A stretch of DNA of 64,000 nucleotides from Natronobacterium haloterrestre. GTDB taxonomy: Archaea > Halobacteriota > Halobacteria > Halobacteriales > Natrialbaceae. The position numbers and the translations under genes were made by a program. The notes under the pieces are model-generated. The model made no database searches. It was given only the letters and a program-made list of their open reading frames with translations, and was not told the origin of the DNA. Positions 22,900-29,816 of the stretch are shown here, piece after piece. Position 1 is the stretch's first letter; every line of letters starts with the position of its first letter. The stretch lies in contig NZ_FOKW01000009.1 of the NCBI RefSeq assembly GCF_900112205.1, positions 124,001-188,000 of the forward strand, written 5' to 3'.

Positions 22900-22974
22900 G
22901 CTCCGATAGTGTAGTCCGGCCAATCATATTGCCCTCTCGAGGCAATGACCGGGGTTCGAATCCCCGTCGGAGCA
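22900..22974 (+). tRNA. tRNA-Glu (anticodon CUC)
   Basis: It folds as a standard cloverleaf. The acceptor stem is GCTCCGA/TCGGAGC with discriminator A. The D arm starts GTG. The anticodon stem TTGCC/GGCAA holds the loop CTCTCGA with anticodon CTC, and the T arm is CGGGG-TTCGAAT-CCCCG. CCA is not encoded. Its 3' end borders the defence island, and such tRNA ends are typical integration sites, but I found no second copy of the 3' end that would mark the far boundary. Confidence 0.96.
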
Positions 22975-23319: not shown

Positions 23320-24666
23320 TTATACCACATCTCGCAAAACTGACTCCAACTCTTCTTCTAACTCAGACGCCTGCAGGATAGCAATTTCCTGCTCTTTTTG
23401 CCCCTCTACAGATGCGGTATCCTGATCAAGATCCTGCACGACCAACATCCCGTTCCATCCAGATCCGAAGTACTCGCCATCTTCCTGGCCAAACACGAAC
23501 TCGTCGTTCACCCGTAAAAACGCGAGATACTCGAGCGTCTCCTTGATCCCCTGGCGAATCGTCGCCTCTCGCGTACTGTTTTTCACCTCGACGATCAGGT
23601 ACTCGTGCTCGTTTTCGTCCTCCGAGATGACCTCGAGGACGATCACGTCAGGCCGACCCGTGTGATTCCGGTAGTCCTTCCTGAAGTAGTTGCCAGCGAT
23701 CTCCTGTGCGGCAACCTGCACCTTGTCCGTCCGGGATAACTCCGCTTTGTCCTCATCAGGGACCGCCACAAACGACAGTTCACGATCCCGGGCCGAGTTA
23801 TCGTGGTAGAGGACGATCTCTTTCTCGCCCTCGAACCGCGCCAGTTCCTGTCGATCCGTGGCGATCGTCTTGAACTCGGGCTGGGTCTCCCGCATCTCCT
23901 CGAGCGTCGCCACGAACCGGAAGAGGACGAACAGCTCGAACAACGTGTCCTGATCATCCGGAGCGATAGCGGTCTCTTCGAGCAACTGGCGGATCGCGTC
24001 GGGCTCCCCGCGGAATAGCCGCTCTCGAGAACGAAGCAACGAGGCCGCATCCCGGTACACCTCGTGGCGCGAATTGGCAGCCGTCGTCAGCATCCGCTCC
24101 GTTGGCTCGTAGGTATCGGGCTCGCGGATCCGACGGACGTGTACGTTCCGCTCGACGATACGCTGGAGCTCGTCAATCAGTTCGTCGCTCCCCTTCCAGG
24201 TCTCCGTGACCCACTCGTAATCGCCCCGGAGGTACTCCGCCGCTTCTCGAATCGTCTCGTGGACGACGGAGATCAACCGCTTTAAGACGATATTCTCGGG
24301 GATGTCGTAGTCCTCAGACCGATTTTCGCAGACGTAAAGCGATCTATCGCGTGGATGCTCTGCATACCGCTTCTTGATCGTCTTCCCCCAGTTGATACGC
24401 CCATCGACGGTTCCACGCCGTGTTCGAGACGTCGTCTGCGTCTCGGTACGGATACTGCGAAGATGCGCCGGCAGTTCCCTGAAGAACTCGACGACGTCGT
24501 CCTGGAGGATAAAATGTAGATCCAGGAGCAACTCGTATTCCTCGAACCGCTCGTCTAACTGCTCGGGCTTGATCGACCGGGCCAACTCTTGCTCCGGGAA
24601 GGAGCCGTGCATCGCGTACGCGAGGATGTCCTCGGTGAGTTGCTCGAGGAGGTCGTCCCTATTCAT
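23320..24666 (-). CDS. McrC-like nuclease subunit of a type IV restriction system
   Basis: 448 residues. The C-terminal half holds a PD-(D/E)XK nuclease core: GRPDVIVLEV gives PD, and YLIVEVKNSTREATI gives E-x-K, at about residues 340-380. The N-terminal half is helical and lacks an obvious beta-barrel start as in E. coli McrC. McrC cleaves DNA when driven by the McrB motor at modified bases. Its ATG overlaps the end of mcrB by eight bases, so the two are one coupled operon. I assign McrC by the neighbour, the nuclease core and length. Confidence 0.85.
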   Translation of the reverse strand: MNRDDLLEQLTEDILAYAMHGSFPEQELARSIKPEQLDERFEEYELLLDLHFILQDDVVEFFRELPAHLRSIRTETQTTSRTRRGTVDGRINWGKTIKKRYAEHPRDRSLYVCENRSEDYDIPENIVLKRLISVVHETIREAAEYLRGDYEWVTETWKGSDELIDELQRIVERNVHVRRIREPDTYEPTERMLTTAANSRHEVYRDAASLLRSRERLFRGEPDAIRQLLEETAIAPDDQDTLFELFVLFRFVATLEEMRETQPEFKTIATDRQELARFEGEKEIVLYHDNSARDRELSFVAVPDEDKAELSRTDKVQVAAQEIAGNYFRKDYRNHTGRPDVIVLEVISEDENEHEYLIVEVKNSTREATIRQGIKETLEYLAFLRVNDEFVFGQEDGEYFGSGWNGMLVVQDLDQDTASVEGQKEQEIAILQASELEEELESVLRDVV

Positions 24667-27600
24667 TCGTGGCGAGGGTCACCTGGAGCATCTCTTGAGC
24701 TGCGGCTTCGACCAAATCGGCCTCGATCTCGTCGACGGCCGCGAGCTTCCGAACGATCTTCTCGCGTCTCGGTACGCCCTCCAACTGCGGGAAGATGTAG
24801 CTGATGACCGCCTGCGTCAGATGGTGGTCGAGCTCGGCTTCGGGATGGTGAGCGATGTATCGGAGGACGTCTTCGACGATTGCGGGCCCGATCGCTCGTT
24901 CGTCTATCGCCTGGTTGGTCGCTTGCCAGACACGGCCGACTGCCCACGCCTGGGGACGGGACGCTTCGATCCCCCACGCATCGGCATACTCGAGTACTAC
25001 GTCTTCGACCGTTCGCCCACCGTCTGTTTGCTCCGTTCCCTCCGGAAGCTCGGGTACAGGGACGCGAACGAACGCGAATCGCCGCATGAACGCGTAACTC
25101 ATCTCGTACAGCGACGTCTTGTCGTAGGCGTTCATCGTAGCGAAGATCCGCCACGAGTTGGGAACGACGTACTGGTTGGCAGCAGGACGCCCTGTGAGGT
25201 CCGCAGACGTCGTGAGTTCCACTTCTCGCCCATCGACCGTGTACGGCAGTTGCACCGATTGGCCGGACAGCAACGTGAACAGTTGCCCGAACGCTTTGTC
25301 GATATCCGCTCGGTTGAGTTCGTCGATCACGAGGAGTTCGTTCGACTGTGTCCCACTCTCGAGGTCTTTGAGCCGGTTGAGGACGATCCCGGGCGTAAAG
25401 GAGAGGTCGTCACCGTTCTCACCGGATTCGTTCGGCATGTACCCGCCAACGGTGTCGAACGTCGACCAGTCGGCAGTGGCTGTCGTCATCTCGAAATCCG
25501 TGTAGAGAGACGGACGATGTTCGACGAGATACTCACAGACTCGTTCGGCGATCTCCGTTTTTCCCGTTCCCGGCGGGCCGGTAAGCAGCACGTGTTTGCC
25601 GGACTGCAGTGCTGTCGCGATCTGCTCGAGAATTCGCTCACCTCGTTCGTCTTCGAAGTGGAGCCCCTCGAGGATGTCCGCCGGGAGCGTACACTCGAGG
25701 GACTGGTGAGGATTGATCGGCGAGACCTCCTGTAGGTCCTCAGCCATCGCCTCGATCAACGCAGCGGGACGCTCGTAATCGATCTCATCGTCCTCTGTCC
25801 GGAAAGTCCCATACATCGATTGTGCGGGGAACTCCTTTCCGGAGATGTTCTCACAGAGGCGATTGGCCTCCTCGATCGACAAACAATCGGCCGTCAGTGC
25901 AGCCAGTTCGCCGTTGACCTGTGCCGTCTCTTTGGCAGTGATCCCTTCTGTGAAGTCGATGGCGTCGACGTCCCCGGTAAGGAAGAGTCGATCGAAGCCG
26001 GCGATCATCGAGAAGTCCGCGCCGGCCTCGTGTTCCTCCCACCACCATGGGTCGGATTTTTCAGTAGTGTCGCCGAAGACGACCGCACCGATGACACCGT
26101 TCGGTTGCGAGGCGAACTCCTCCTTGCCGGGTTCGGCTCGTGAATGGAGAATCCCGACGTCACCCTTCTCGAGCTGTTCCCAGCGGTTGCGATGTTCTGG
26201 CTCGAACGAGAGCGATCCGTGTTCGATGGCCGTGAGCCAGTACTCCGGCGGCGCGGTGAATTTGTAGACGGTCGGTTCCTGCTCTCGCAGGTGCGTCGTT
26301 AGTGGATGGTCGATTTCAACCGATGAGTGGACCTGGGATGGATCACCGACCTCGTACGAGTCTTTGAGCACACTGTTGAGTCGAGGTTGGTTGAGACCGC
26401 CCCCGAGATCCAGTTCCTCCTGGCGAAGTCGCACCCAGCCCAAGAAGAGGGTCTGAGCGGGCGAAAACCGATCAAGTGTTCCGCTACCGAAATCGGTCGC
26501 TTTCTCGGCTAAATCCGCTTCGAGAGTCCGGTAGACGATCCGAAGCTGGTCGAGTTTCGTTGCGGTCGACCGGTCGACAGTATCGGACGGCCTGAATCCC
26601 TCGAGTGCCCCGGACCACTCTTCGATGAAGGAGTCATCAATCCGAGTCTGGAACCATGATCTGTCTTCTGCAGAGAGCCGTGTTTGAATATCCTCGAGGG
26701 CTGTGTCTAACGATTCGTATTCCCCAGCAACCTCGTCAGGATAGAGCTGTTCGCCCCGAATCACCTCGATGAACTGGGAGACAGAATCGTACTCCTCGTA
26801 GAATCCTGAGCCGCTGCGATCGAAATTGATCGCACTGAACGTATCGTTGGGCCAGCCCTTGAATCCGAGCAGATCCCAGAACTGCGCTCGATCGAGCTCG
26901 GCTTCGTAGATCGGCTCGAGGAACATCACATGCGGGAAGACCTGATCGGTCACATCGCCCCAGCCGACTGCGTTCGTAAACCGAGCTGCTACATCGTCGT
27001 CTAACACTGTGGCGTGGGCGATCCGAGCAAGGAGGGTATACGACCCGCCACGGCGTCCCTCTCGATCGGCGAAGAGGAGGTAATCGCCCTGGTCGGCCGG
27101 CTCGTCTTCCTGGTTCCCCCAGACTCGAACGGAGTCCCCGTCGACCGGCGGCTCGTAGATACCGGTGAGTTGGTCGCGAGGAACGTCCTCGAGAATGGTC
27201 CGCTCAAAATTCGTCCGGATGGGGCCATCGCCCGTCTTGATCGGGACCTGGTACACCGAGGGGTCGGCAAACTGCTGCAGGTTCGAGTTCGCTCCCGTCT
27301 GAGTGGAGCTAGAATCGGTTCTCTCTCGAACCCCGCGTTCAGCTGGGAGTTCTTCGTCCTGAATTGGAGCAAGTAGGAAGCGAATTGCAGTTCGTGTGTT
27401 CCCCTCCGAGTCTGGGAGTTCCTCGTAGAAGTGACCTGCGTAGAGGTACTGCCCGATATAGCGGACACCGTCGTCTTCCATCTCGAAAAAGTGCAACTCG
27501 CGACCGTCCTCGAGATGGTCTCGAATGGCTCGGTTGCCCCGGACCATCTCCATATCCCCGACCTGGCCCTCGCCAGTGTAGACTACCGTGCCATCCGAGC

Positions 27601-28309
27601 GGAGTTCGTCCTGATACCCATGTTCTCCGCCGGTGCTCCCGCTAAAGAGAAAGACGACTGGTTCGTCTCTCGAGGGTGCGATTCCACCTTGGATGCTGCC
27701 GCCATATTCTGAGTGCAGCTCACGGCGTTCGTAGACAGTGTCGGGCTCGAGGTCGACAGTCGAAACACCGCGTAGTTGTTCGGCGACTGCTTCACCGGCG
27801 TCTGTGAGATGGATTCGATCGTCGGTTCGTTCGACGTAGCCAATCGTCTGTAGCCATTCACGGTGGCGGCTCGCAACGCCGGGCGTTTCCATTCGACACT
27901 CCTCGAAGGCGTCCACGAGCAACTCCATGAGATCTTCATCGGTTTTGGGTTCGGCAGTGAGTGCAGCGAGGATCGTGTCGAAGCCTTTGACCGTGGTTCG
28001 AAGGGCGTTGTAGAGGACCGCTGGGTCCTGTTCCTCGAGGTAGCATCGGCCGATTCGGGTACAGCTGTATGTGTCACCCCTGCGCTCGAGCAGGTCTAGT
28101 TGCTCGAGGAACTGCAGTCGTCGCTCGATCGCGTCAGGGTCTTCGGCGTTCGTCCTGGCGGCGATCCAGTCTACGACGTTGTCTCGAGGGACGCCATCCG
28201 AGTCCTCGCCACCCGACTCGAGGAAGGAAAGTAAATCAGCCAAGATATCGGCTCGATCTTCAAGATCACCGTAGAATCGCGCGGTGGACATCCGACGATC
28301 GTCTGCCAT
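24659..28309 (-). CDS. McrB-like GTPase with wHTH, SRA-like and EVE/PUA-like reader regions
   Basis: About 1216 residues, far longer than E. coli McrB (459). In order: a winged-helix pair (about 1-200); an SRA-like region (about 220-330) with EHGYQDE, YTGEGQVGDMEM and RGNRAIRDH, like the SRA domain of ScoMcrA; a second PUA-like region (about 355-490: GDYLLFADREG and HVMFLEPI). A helical stretch follows, then an EVE/YTH-like region (about 685-790: YKFTAPPEYWLTAIEHGSL) and the McrB AAA motor (about 880-1200). The motor has Walker A GPPGTGKTE at about 912, LLVIDELNRAD and MNAYDKTS in place of MNTADRS. ATG 28309 fits a leaderless start about 29 bases from TATA 28338. Confidence 0.82.
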   Translation of the reverse strand: MADDRRMSTARFYGDLEDRADILADLLSFLESGGEDSDGVPRDNVVDWIAARTNAEDPDAIERRLQFLEQLDLLERRGDTYSCTRIGRCYLEEQDPAVLYNALRTTVKGFDTILAALTAEPKTDEDLMELLVDAFEECRMETPGVASRHREWLQTIGYVERTDDRIHLTDAGEAVAEQLRGVSTVDLEPDTVYERRELHSEYGGSIQGGIAPSRDEPVVFLFSGSTGGEHGYQDELRSDGTVVYTGEGQVGDMEMVRGNRAIRDHLEDGRELHFFEMEDDGVRYIGQYLYAGHFYEELPDSEGNTRTAIRFLLAPIQDEELPAERGVRERTDSSSTQTGANSNLQQFADPSVYQVPIKTGDGPIRTNFERTILEDVPRDQLTGIYEPPVDGDSVRVWGNQEDEPADQGDYLLFADREGRRGGSYTLLARIAHATVLDDDVAARFTNAVGWGDVTDQVFPHVMFLEPIYEAELDRAQFWDLLGFKGWPNDTFSAINFDRSGSGFYEEYDSVSQFIEVIRGEQLYPDEVAGEYESLDTALEDIQTRLSAEDRSWFQTRIDDSFIEEWSGALEGFRPSDTVDRSTATKLDQLRIVYRTLEADLAEKATDFGSGTLDRFSPAQTLFLGWVRLRQEELDLGGGLNQPRLNSVLKDSYEVGDPSQVHSSVEIDHPLTTHLREQEPTVYKFTAPPEYWLTAIEHGSLSFEPEHRNRWEQLEKGDVGILHSRAEPGKEEFASQPNGVIGAVVFGDTTEKSDPWWWEEHEAGADFSMIAGFDRLFLTGDVDAIDFTEGITAKETAQVNGELAALTADCLSIEEANRLCENISGKEFPAQSMYGTFRTEDDEIDYERPAALIEAMAEDLQEVSPINPHQSLECTLPADILEGLHFEDERGERILEQIATALQSGKHVLLTGPPGTGKTEIAERVCEYLVEHRPSLYTDFEMTTATADWSTFDTVGGYMPNESGENGDDLSFTPGIVLNRLKDLESGTQSNELLVIDELNRADIDKAFGQLFTLLSGQSVQLPYTVDGREVELTTSADLTGRPAANQYVVPNSWRIFATMNAYDKTSLYEMSYAFMRRFAFVRVPVPELPEGTEQTDGGRTVEDVVLEYADAWGIEASRPQAWAVGRVWQATNQAIDERAIGPAIVEDVLRYIAHHPEAELDHHLTQAVISYIFPQLEGVPRREKIVRKLAAVDEIEADLVEAAAQEMLQVTLATNE

Positions 28310-28337
28310 TCTTCTATAACACGTCACAGTAACTTAC

Positions 28338-28464: not shown

Positions 28465-28727
28465 GTGACGCTCAGGGAGGTGTGTGAACAGCAGCGGGAT
28501 ATGCATCCGGAGTCGGGGAGTCGTGGGGAGACGGACATGTCGCGACAGCGAGTGGATTAGTTGCGGAGCATGGAACTCGTCGAGGAGCGAGGTGACGCGT
28601 ACGCATTGACGGACGGGGCCGGTCGTTCGTCGAGAACGCTGTTGCAGAGTGGAGTGATTCGGATTGGACGCCCGCAACAACCGACGACGAAATGAGTGCT
28701 GGGACGTACGCGACGACGATTCGATAG
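28465..28727 (+). pseudogene. Broken HNH endonuclease-type gene remnant
   Basis: The plus strand reads VTLREVCEQQRDMHPESGS, then a stop, then MELVEERGDAYALTDGAG. After a frame change it continues as FVENAVAEWSDSDW and TPATTDDEMSAGTYATTIR, then a stop. These pieces match the N-terminal winged-helix and linker part of haloarchaeal HNH endonucleases as I remember them. The catalytic HNH part is missing. With a stop, a frameshift and a missing nuclease domain, it is a relic. It sits between the McrBC-like operon and another nuclease gene, so the site has gathered and lost defence genes. Confidence 0.6.
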
Positions 28728-28805: not shown

Positions 28806-29816
28806 TCAGCTCGTCTTCTCGAACGCCAATTCGTCAGGCGAGTACGTGTAGCACTTGATTCCGTTCTCGTCGCAGTGCTCTGCTAGCTTTGATGGCCACA
28901 CTCCTTCGTCGTCGAAGTCCCCGAGGTACGCAACGGTAACCGAGTCTTCACCCCGTTCGACGACGACAGCCGTGTTCGGATCGGTATGACTGGTCCTGAT
29001 GACGCGGTCTCCCGGAACGTACGGGTTGTCGGCGAACTCGAGGTTTTCGTGTTTGTATGTCCAGAGTTTGATCTCGGTGTCGACGCAGTACGATGCGAGG
29101 ATTCCGGGGTGGTACTCACGCCAGTCTGCGGGTCCTTTGTCGAGTGCACTCGGGAACGCTACGCGAACGGCTTCACCGTCGAGTTCCTGTCCGAAGGCAC
29201 CAGTGTTCTTCTCCGGGGGCATCACCTCAATGACGACGCCGACGGACGCGTCCTCGTCACCAGCCTTGATGACGCGGTCACCAGGCTTGAACGGGTTCTC
29301 CGGTTTCTGGTTCATGTACGCCGTGTTCGGCCCTAACTCCTGTAACTCGTTCATGGGCCGCGCTGTGAGGTGCGCTAGTTTTTCCGGTTCGTCACCCGAG
29401 TACGCCGCTTGCGTTTCCACCTTCGATTTGAGCGTCTCAGTACGCTCCCACCCTAACAGGATCAGCGCGTCCTCGTTATCTCGATGCCAGACCATCACGA
29501 TGATATCGTCGTCGGGGTCGTTCTCCAGCAGGTTCGCCGGGCGAAACGCAGAGACGTCTCTCGATGTCTTCACGTCCACTTCGTAGCCGAACACCTCGAA
29601 ATCGTGCCCGGAGAAACTCTCGGGATTGCACCGCCGGATCGCTGCTTCGTTCTGCCATTCCCACATCTCGACTGGAAGGTACTCCCGGCAGAACTGCTCG
29701 AACGCCAGCTCACCAAGGTTCCCAATTCGTTTCACATCGATATCGTCCGCACCCTGAATCACTGCCTGGTGATTCGCTCGCTCCCGATCGATCCCGTCCG
29801 GCGAATACAGATACAT
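28806..29816 (-). CDS. Probable PD-(D/E)XK nuclease with two tandem C-terminal modules
   Basis: 336 residues. The N-terminal about 160 residues look like a nuclease: IGNLGELAFEQFCREY supplies a helix with Glu36, and GHDFEVFGYEVDVKTSR supplies Asp72 and D-V-K (81-83), the PD-(D/E)XK pattern with Asp in the last acidic place. Two copies of an about 85-residue module follow, beginning NPFKPGDRVI (about 180) and NPYVPGDRVI (about 262). Each ends in a similar W/Y-T-Y turn, resembling SH3/KOW-like barrels. I do not know this architecture by name. TATA (about 29842) lies 26 bases before the ATG, so the mRNA is probably leaderless. It stands beside the McrBC-like operon on the same strand. Confidence 0.7.
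   Translation of the reverse strand: MYLYSPDGIDRERANHQAVIQGADDIDVKRIGNLGELAFEQFCREYLPVEMWEWQNEAAIRRCNPESFSGHDFEVFGYEVDVKTSRDVSAFRPANLLENDPDDDIIVMVWHRDNEDALILLGWERTETLKSKVETQAAYSGDEPEKLAHLTARPMNELQELGPNTAYMNQKPENPFKPGDRVIKAGDEDASVGVVIEVMPPEKNTGAFGQELDGEAVRVAFPSALDKGPADWREYHPGILASYCVDTEIKLWTYKHENLEFADNPYVPGDRVIRTSHTDPNTAVVVERGEDSVTVAYLGDFDDEGVWPSKLAEHCDENGIKCYTYSPDELAFEKTS

Follow-up and report, generated by a model that had tools for sequence, protein, structure and literature searches.

McrB proteins are GTPases that assemble into hexamers, in which GTP and stimulation by McrC lead to translocation and a reader domain selects the DNA. The characterised members, as reviewed in the literature that we searched, carry one reader each. 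The Escherichia coli K-12 system consists of McrC and an McrB in which McrB-N (DUF3578; Pfam MrcB_N), a single reader of 5-methylcytosine (5mC), precedes the AAA motor. The McrBC system of Thermococcus gammatolerans (PDB 6p0f/6p0g and 6ut5) likewise pairs McrC with an McrB GTPase, but its single N-terminal reader of ~185 residues is a YTH-like domain, which other papers describe as a sensor of N6-methyladenine (6mA) (PMC7897488, PMC12707154). A third type, EVE–McrB, has been described as the commonest EVE fusion in defence, often with additional domains; the searched part of that text mentions no SRA + YTH + EVE stack (Bell et al. 2020, PMC7641849). EVE–McrB, YTH–McrB and McrB-N–McrB are each already known separately. 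Here, we describe a two-gene McrBC-type locus from a salt-loving archaeon, Natronobacterium haloterrestre, in which three PUA-superfamily reader folds sit on one GTPase, whereas the usual McrB has one reader.

The locus is encoded on the minus strand of the window (i.e. the whole 64,000-nt stretch of DNA analysed, to which all coordinates refer). The McrB-like multi-reader GTPase (24659..28309, 1216 aa), identified by its ORF and translation with Pfam AAA_5 and NCBIfam McrB matches, runs from an ATG at 28309 to a stop codon ending at 24659; an alternative start, a GTG at 28327 located six codons upstream of the ATG, is also open. The McrC-like nuclease (23320..24666, minus strand, 448 aa) overlaps McrB by 8 bases (24659–24666), and the ORF coordinates confirm both the placement of McrB and the eight-base overlap given in the first-pass annotation of this DNA. 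This overlap recurs in relatives, and a McrC homologue adjoins McrB in 94 of 118 of them. Because at least nine intact McrB orthologues exist at 58–91% identity, the locus is neither a chance arrangement nor an annotation artefact.

The AAA+ GTPase core spans residues 880–1216 (24662..25672, minus strand), in line with the earlier estimate of about 880 residues ahead of it. Pfam AAA_5 matches residues 906–1078 at 2.9e-17, and the core matches E. coli McrB with an E-value of 1.4e-14. It contains a Walker A motif (GPPGTGKT, 911), a Walker B motif (IDELNRAD, 995) and the McrB signature (MNAYD, 1059). The stretch MNAYDKTS had been called deviating, but NAYD is the standard form of the NxxD motif by which the McrB signature is defined (PMC11090510). 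Membership of CoCoNuT, the NxD branch of McrB, was considered and rejected, the signature here being NxxD. The McrC partner has an intact PD-(D/E)xK motif (P339 D340 ... E360 x K362), invariant in 81 of 81 sequences. Its N-terminal part gave no match to Pfam DUF2357 in the window protein (P0002) and a marginal one (0.0098) in 1 of 32 relatives, and the McrC profile had no match by sequence in the PDB. The NxxD GTPase, adjacent mcrC and PD-(D/E)xK nuclease are shared with E. coli McrBC, and the pair is most likely a modification-dependent (type IV) McrBC system, for which GTP-dependent cleavage of modified DNA is predicted.

When the full-length McrB was scanned directly with Pfam, NCBIfam and PADLOC, only its AAA core and one winged helix were recovered. 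The region in front of the core was resolved with module profiles built from relatives (292 class genomes and 80 GTDB loci), which break McrB at the same joints and so provide the module borders. AlphaFold models, whose alignment input consisted of the window and related-locus sequences and was thin for SRA, reached a pLDDT of 79.6 for residues 1–540 and 92.3 for residues 527–870. Residues 1–870 consist of two winged helices (wH-wH), an SRA domain, a YTH-like domain of the T. gammatolerans McrB (TgMcrB) type, a helical spacer and an EVE/YTH-like domain. Relative to TgMcrB, the window protein adds the wH pair and SRA before YTH, and the helical module and EVE-like domain between YTH and motor. 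That one McrB bears several different reader folds had been proposed from a first look at the sequence, with profile and structure analysis of residues 1–880 as the check. That analysis found separate SRA and EVE/PUA-superfamily folds, and profiles, structure models and pocket-residue conservation support the proposal; more than one known reader domain is present, and in the literature searched the domain order did not prove to be a single family already described. A scan of viral contigs with residues 1–340 returned no relative.

The protein starts with the tandem winged helices WH1–WH2 (residues about 5–182; 27764..28297, minus strand), assigned by HMM, Pfam and structure comparison. Only one winged helix–turn–helix had been noted here; the fold is indeed present, but WH1 and WH2 are homologous to each other (HMM), a duplication that had been missed. 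Pfam HVO_A0261_N matches two stretches of the region (4.3e-9), and the second winged helix superposes on haloarchaeal RosR (Z 11.6, 1.8 Å over 78 residues). The modelled pair also superposes on the recognition domains of FokI and BpuJI (Z 10.2–10.9, 3.9 Å, ~170 residues), a suggestive likeness that appears unspecific. Pfam DpnI_C has no match in the window McrB; it matches the McrB relative L025 and, by HMM, L024 and L129. The same wH pair occurs as separate genes beside McrB in two other loci (L047:3537-4517 and L071:1515-2501). The first 320 residues of the window McrB are the same module as that of haloarchaeal wH-wH-SRA-HNH nucleases (L111–L119, 440–570 aa), where it is joined to an HNH nuclease instead and no NTPase is present; together with HhiV4I, ScoMcrA and TagI, these enzymes are among the nearest known systems.

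Within this module, the SRA domain covers residues 183–322 (27344..27763, minus strand), as assigned by profile, Foldseek and VIA. The motifs EHGYQDE, GEGQVGDMEM and RGNRAIRDH had been read as ScoMcrA-like, and rightly so: the module profile matches ScoMcrA (PDB 5zmn) at 5.4e-7 and SUVH5 at 2.5e-4, while Foldseek on the model finds ScoMcrA (3.3e-7), SUVH5 (7.4e-6), AspBHI and MspJI. In VIA, the region scores a Z of about 10–11. This part of the model has a pLDDT of only 60–85, and Pfam SAD_SRA matches only relatives, at 0.0013, which is below the family cut-off. A pocket triad of two aromatics and a carboxylate (Y232, D234 and Y244) is invariant in 25 SRA rows, and its +2/+12 spacing equals that of SUVH5 Tyr416, Asp418 and Tyr428, which hold the flipped base (PMC4740795). 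A warning that the SRA-like domain here may be silent comes by analogy from HhiV4I, a haloarchaeal PUA-wH-HNH enzyme in which no role could be detected for the SRA-like domain and 6mA is read by the winged helix (PMC10101028, PMC11037411); unlike in the window protein, its SRA stands before a single DpnI-like winged helix. SRA domains of the ScoMcrA/SUVH5 kind occur in 120 of the 391 class genomes. Most of the frames that contain them are much shorter than McrB, and those inspected (L111–L126) are mostly HNH nucleases. One genome holds, in addition to an intact copy, a broken second SRA-YTH copy with two stop codons (G331:C1:760699-761313).

The YTH-like reader (residues 345–526; 26732..27277, minus strand) belongs to the T. 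gammatolerans McrB family by profile (5.3e-9 against 6p0f) and by VIA (Z 15.3 against TgMcrB over 157 residues, 2.8 Å, 21% identity). The first-pass annotation had placed a PUA-like part between the SRA and EVE-like stretches, which this close structural match bears out, though it missed the family. Two tryptophans, W397 and W450, are invariant in 36 YTH rows, align with W53 and W115 of TgMcrB and are putative aromatic cage residues. The helical spacer, module C (residues 527–660; 26330..26731, minus strand), is modelled with a pLDDT mostly above 90 and is absent from some relatives; searched by sequence against the PDB, it gave chance matches to haemagglutinin HA2 helices only and no relative, and we do not put it forward as a new fold. 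The last domain before the motor is an EVE/YTH-like PUA-superfamily domain (residues 663–856; 25742..26323, minus strand), supported by an AlphaFold pLDDT of 92 and by structure matches to PH1033 (Foldseek 3.4e-4; VIA Z 13.7 over 136 of 143 residues) and YTHDC1 (Z about 12). The stretch KFTAPPEYWLTAIEHGSL had been called EVE/YTH-like, and the domain has that fold. By sequence, the match is weak (profile 0.39), and the Pfam EVE model recognises 0 of 49 members at E 1. As that model fails, we name the domain EVE/YTH-like and not Pfam EVE.

All modules of McrB are under purifying selection. Against the 91% identical orthologue in a sister species, dN/dS is 0.15 for the winged helices, 0.11 for SRA, 0.18 for YTH, 0.16 for the spacer, 0.14 for EVE and 0.10 for AAA, but reaches 0.70 in the linker of 22 residues that joins SRA to YTH. 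With values of 0.10–0.18 in every module, none looks spent on the time scale that separates sister species. Of 125 family genomes, 13 encode the exact domain order within a single frame (once as two aligned pieces), and one further carrier has it split between contigs. Carriers hold it on chromosomes and on plasmids, and in the class sample it is absent outside the host's family.

Around this order lies a variety of related McrB proteins with other reader strings. These include YTH-C-EVE, YTH-EVE and MrcB_N-YTH-C-EVE, as well as DpnI_C-MrcB_N-C-EVE (L025), wH-wH-DpnI_C-MrcB_N-X-C (L129) and a string of two further EVE-like stretches, MrcB_N, YTH and EVE (L048:557-4477). Other reader strings were also noted in the haloarchaeal McrB relatives L024, L036, L042, L044 and L047. 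In close relatives of the window McrB, the MrcB_N family replaces the wH-SRA module; this MrcB_N is related to the 5mC-reading McrB-N of E. coli (PDB 3ssc, 1.7e-5). In a quick GTPase tree, the proteins with MrcB_N branch from among those with wH-SRA, from which it follows that the front reader was exchanged while the YTH-(C)-EVE-GTPase part stayed. Among relatives, the EVE-like domain beside the motor is the most constant module. The window McrB thus belongs to a combinatorial multi-reader McrB set with exchangeable front readers. In another family, a 1596-aa protein (L127:2533-8364) combines wH-wH-SRA, further EVE-like parts and EVE-GTPase, and a separate gene upstream of the GTPase gene encodes a 192-aa YTH-like protein; this is a partly parallel assembly. 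Reader modules therefore occur both in cis and in trans (L127, L047 and L071).

How might several readers serve one motor? We lean, though not strongly, towards a broad-spectrum type IV McrBC whose motor can be recruited by any one of several marks and whose readers act mainly as alternatives. SRA would flip and read a C5-modified cytosine, the YTH-like domain would read N6-methyladenine and the EVE-like domain a modified base of unspecified kind, while the winged helices might hold the DNA or add sequence preference. Any one mark bound by any subunit would then load the GTP-driven McrB hexamer on foreign DNA; McrC would join, the complex would translocate, and the DNA would be cut on collision of complexes, as in E. 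coli McrBC. Readers as alternatives would give a broad spectrum, and the many readers per hexamer could add avidity. The initial suggestion of two modifications or two strands is plausible as far as the marks are concerned (a cytosine mark for SRA, an adenine mark for the YTH-like domain and perhaps a third for the EVE-like domain), while a reading of two strands finds no support. We favour readers as alternatives because the front module, the spacer or the YTH-like domain is missing from relatives that share the core, because some of them have a 5mC reader of the E. coli McrB-N type in front, and because the wH/SRA module alone drives HNH nucleases. Against any reading of modifications here stands LlaJI, a McrBC relative that reads unmodified DNA (PMC12707154).

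Loading by any single mark is further favoured by the methylases of the host. Its genome contains no gene for a C5-cytosine methylase (PF00145), MethyltransfD12 or Dam (PF05869), so the host would not mark itself in those ways; on the opposite side, genes of the N6_N4_Mtase family are present. PF00145 is rarer in carriers of the full order (1 of 13) than in other genomes of the family (45 of 112; Fisher p 0.03, or 0.08 with the split carrier added) in what is an exploratory, small and post hoc count whose statistics ignore kinship. The carrier with PF00145 is G213.

Among the other explanations, the one that survives best, while still unlikely, is that a single reader is active and the others are structural or spent, positioning the DNA or the hexamer. 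The dispensable SRA-like domain of HhiV4I (PMC10101028) fits such a division of labour, as does the EVE-like domain, which is as constant as a structural part would be and matches the EVE family poorly by sequence. The invariant pocket residues of SRA and YTH and the low dN/dS in all modules speak against it, and since relatives have the 5mC-reading E. coli type in place of this front module, a functional reader seems to be needed at that position. A coincidence detector, in which two different marks (e.g. a modified cytosine and 6mA) must be bound simultaneously, sparing host DNA and DNA with a single mark, seems rather improbable. Its precedents are BisI, which needs several marks (PMC11347163), and HhiV4I, which prefers two sites (PMC11037411), and the fixed reader order and similar constraint within the orthologue group agree with it. 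However, the routine lack of at least one reader in same-core relatives argues against a strict requirement, and no mobile element of the host carrying both marks is known. We give a similarly low probability to a motor that integrates marks, with distinct readers bound together and cutting set by their combination or number (cytosine plus adenine), which lineages would re-program by shuffling readers before a constant EVE-GTPase core. Least probable is that the winged helices set specificity by reading a DNA sequence, whether or not it is modified, much as FokI/BpuJI or DpnI/HhiV4I do: the superposition on FokI/BpuJI, the reading of 6mA by winged helices of DpnI and HhiV4I (PMC11037411) and the separate wH proteins beside McrB genes would suit it, but winged helices are very common, a Z of about 10 is unspecific, many same-core relatives do without them, and DpnI_C is found in relatives and not here.

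In the openly available main texts searched, we found neither an McrB with SRA, YTH and EVE in this order nor the exchange of front readers. With different kinds of reader on its motor protein, the system may detect more than one kind of modified invader DNA. The window McrB and its relatives form a natural series for asking how the number and kind of readers set the target range of type IV systems, and whether readers work as alternatives or jointly. The readers themselves are candidate new binders of modified bases.

The McrBC locus is bordered by a tRNA-Glu(CTC) gene (22900..22974, plus strand; ARAGORN), and the same arrangement is found in the sister genome G085. Another genome of the genus (G052; L145/L146) instead has ~25 kb at this place, including a C5-cytosine methylase gene; this stretch runs from tRNA-Glu(CTC) to a 47-bp repeat of the end of the tRNA, close to which are two recombinase-like ORFs (judged from the sequence start only). 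This tRNA gene is an integration site in the genus. A search of the window for another copy of this tRNA end found none, so we claim no right-hand element boundary. Upstream of McrB, a gene at 28806-29816 (minus strand) encodes a 336-aa protein of PHROG 18072 that is 75% identical over 78% to a protein of Haloferax virus Halfgib1; of the 125 family genomes, 51 contain it, and in G085, G167 and G283 it lies close to McrBC. Its stretch YEVDVKTS could be nuclease-like, and it has KOW-like C-terminal repeats. The ~250 bp between McrB and this neighbour (28466-28722) recur twice in L152, 14.7 kb apart and in direct orientation, where they flank a homologue of the neighbour.
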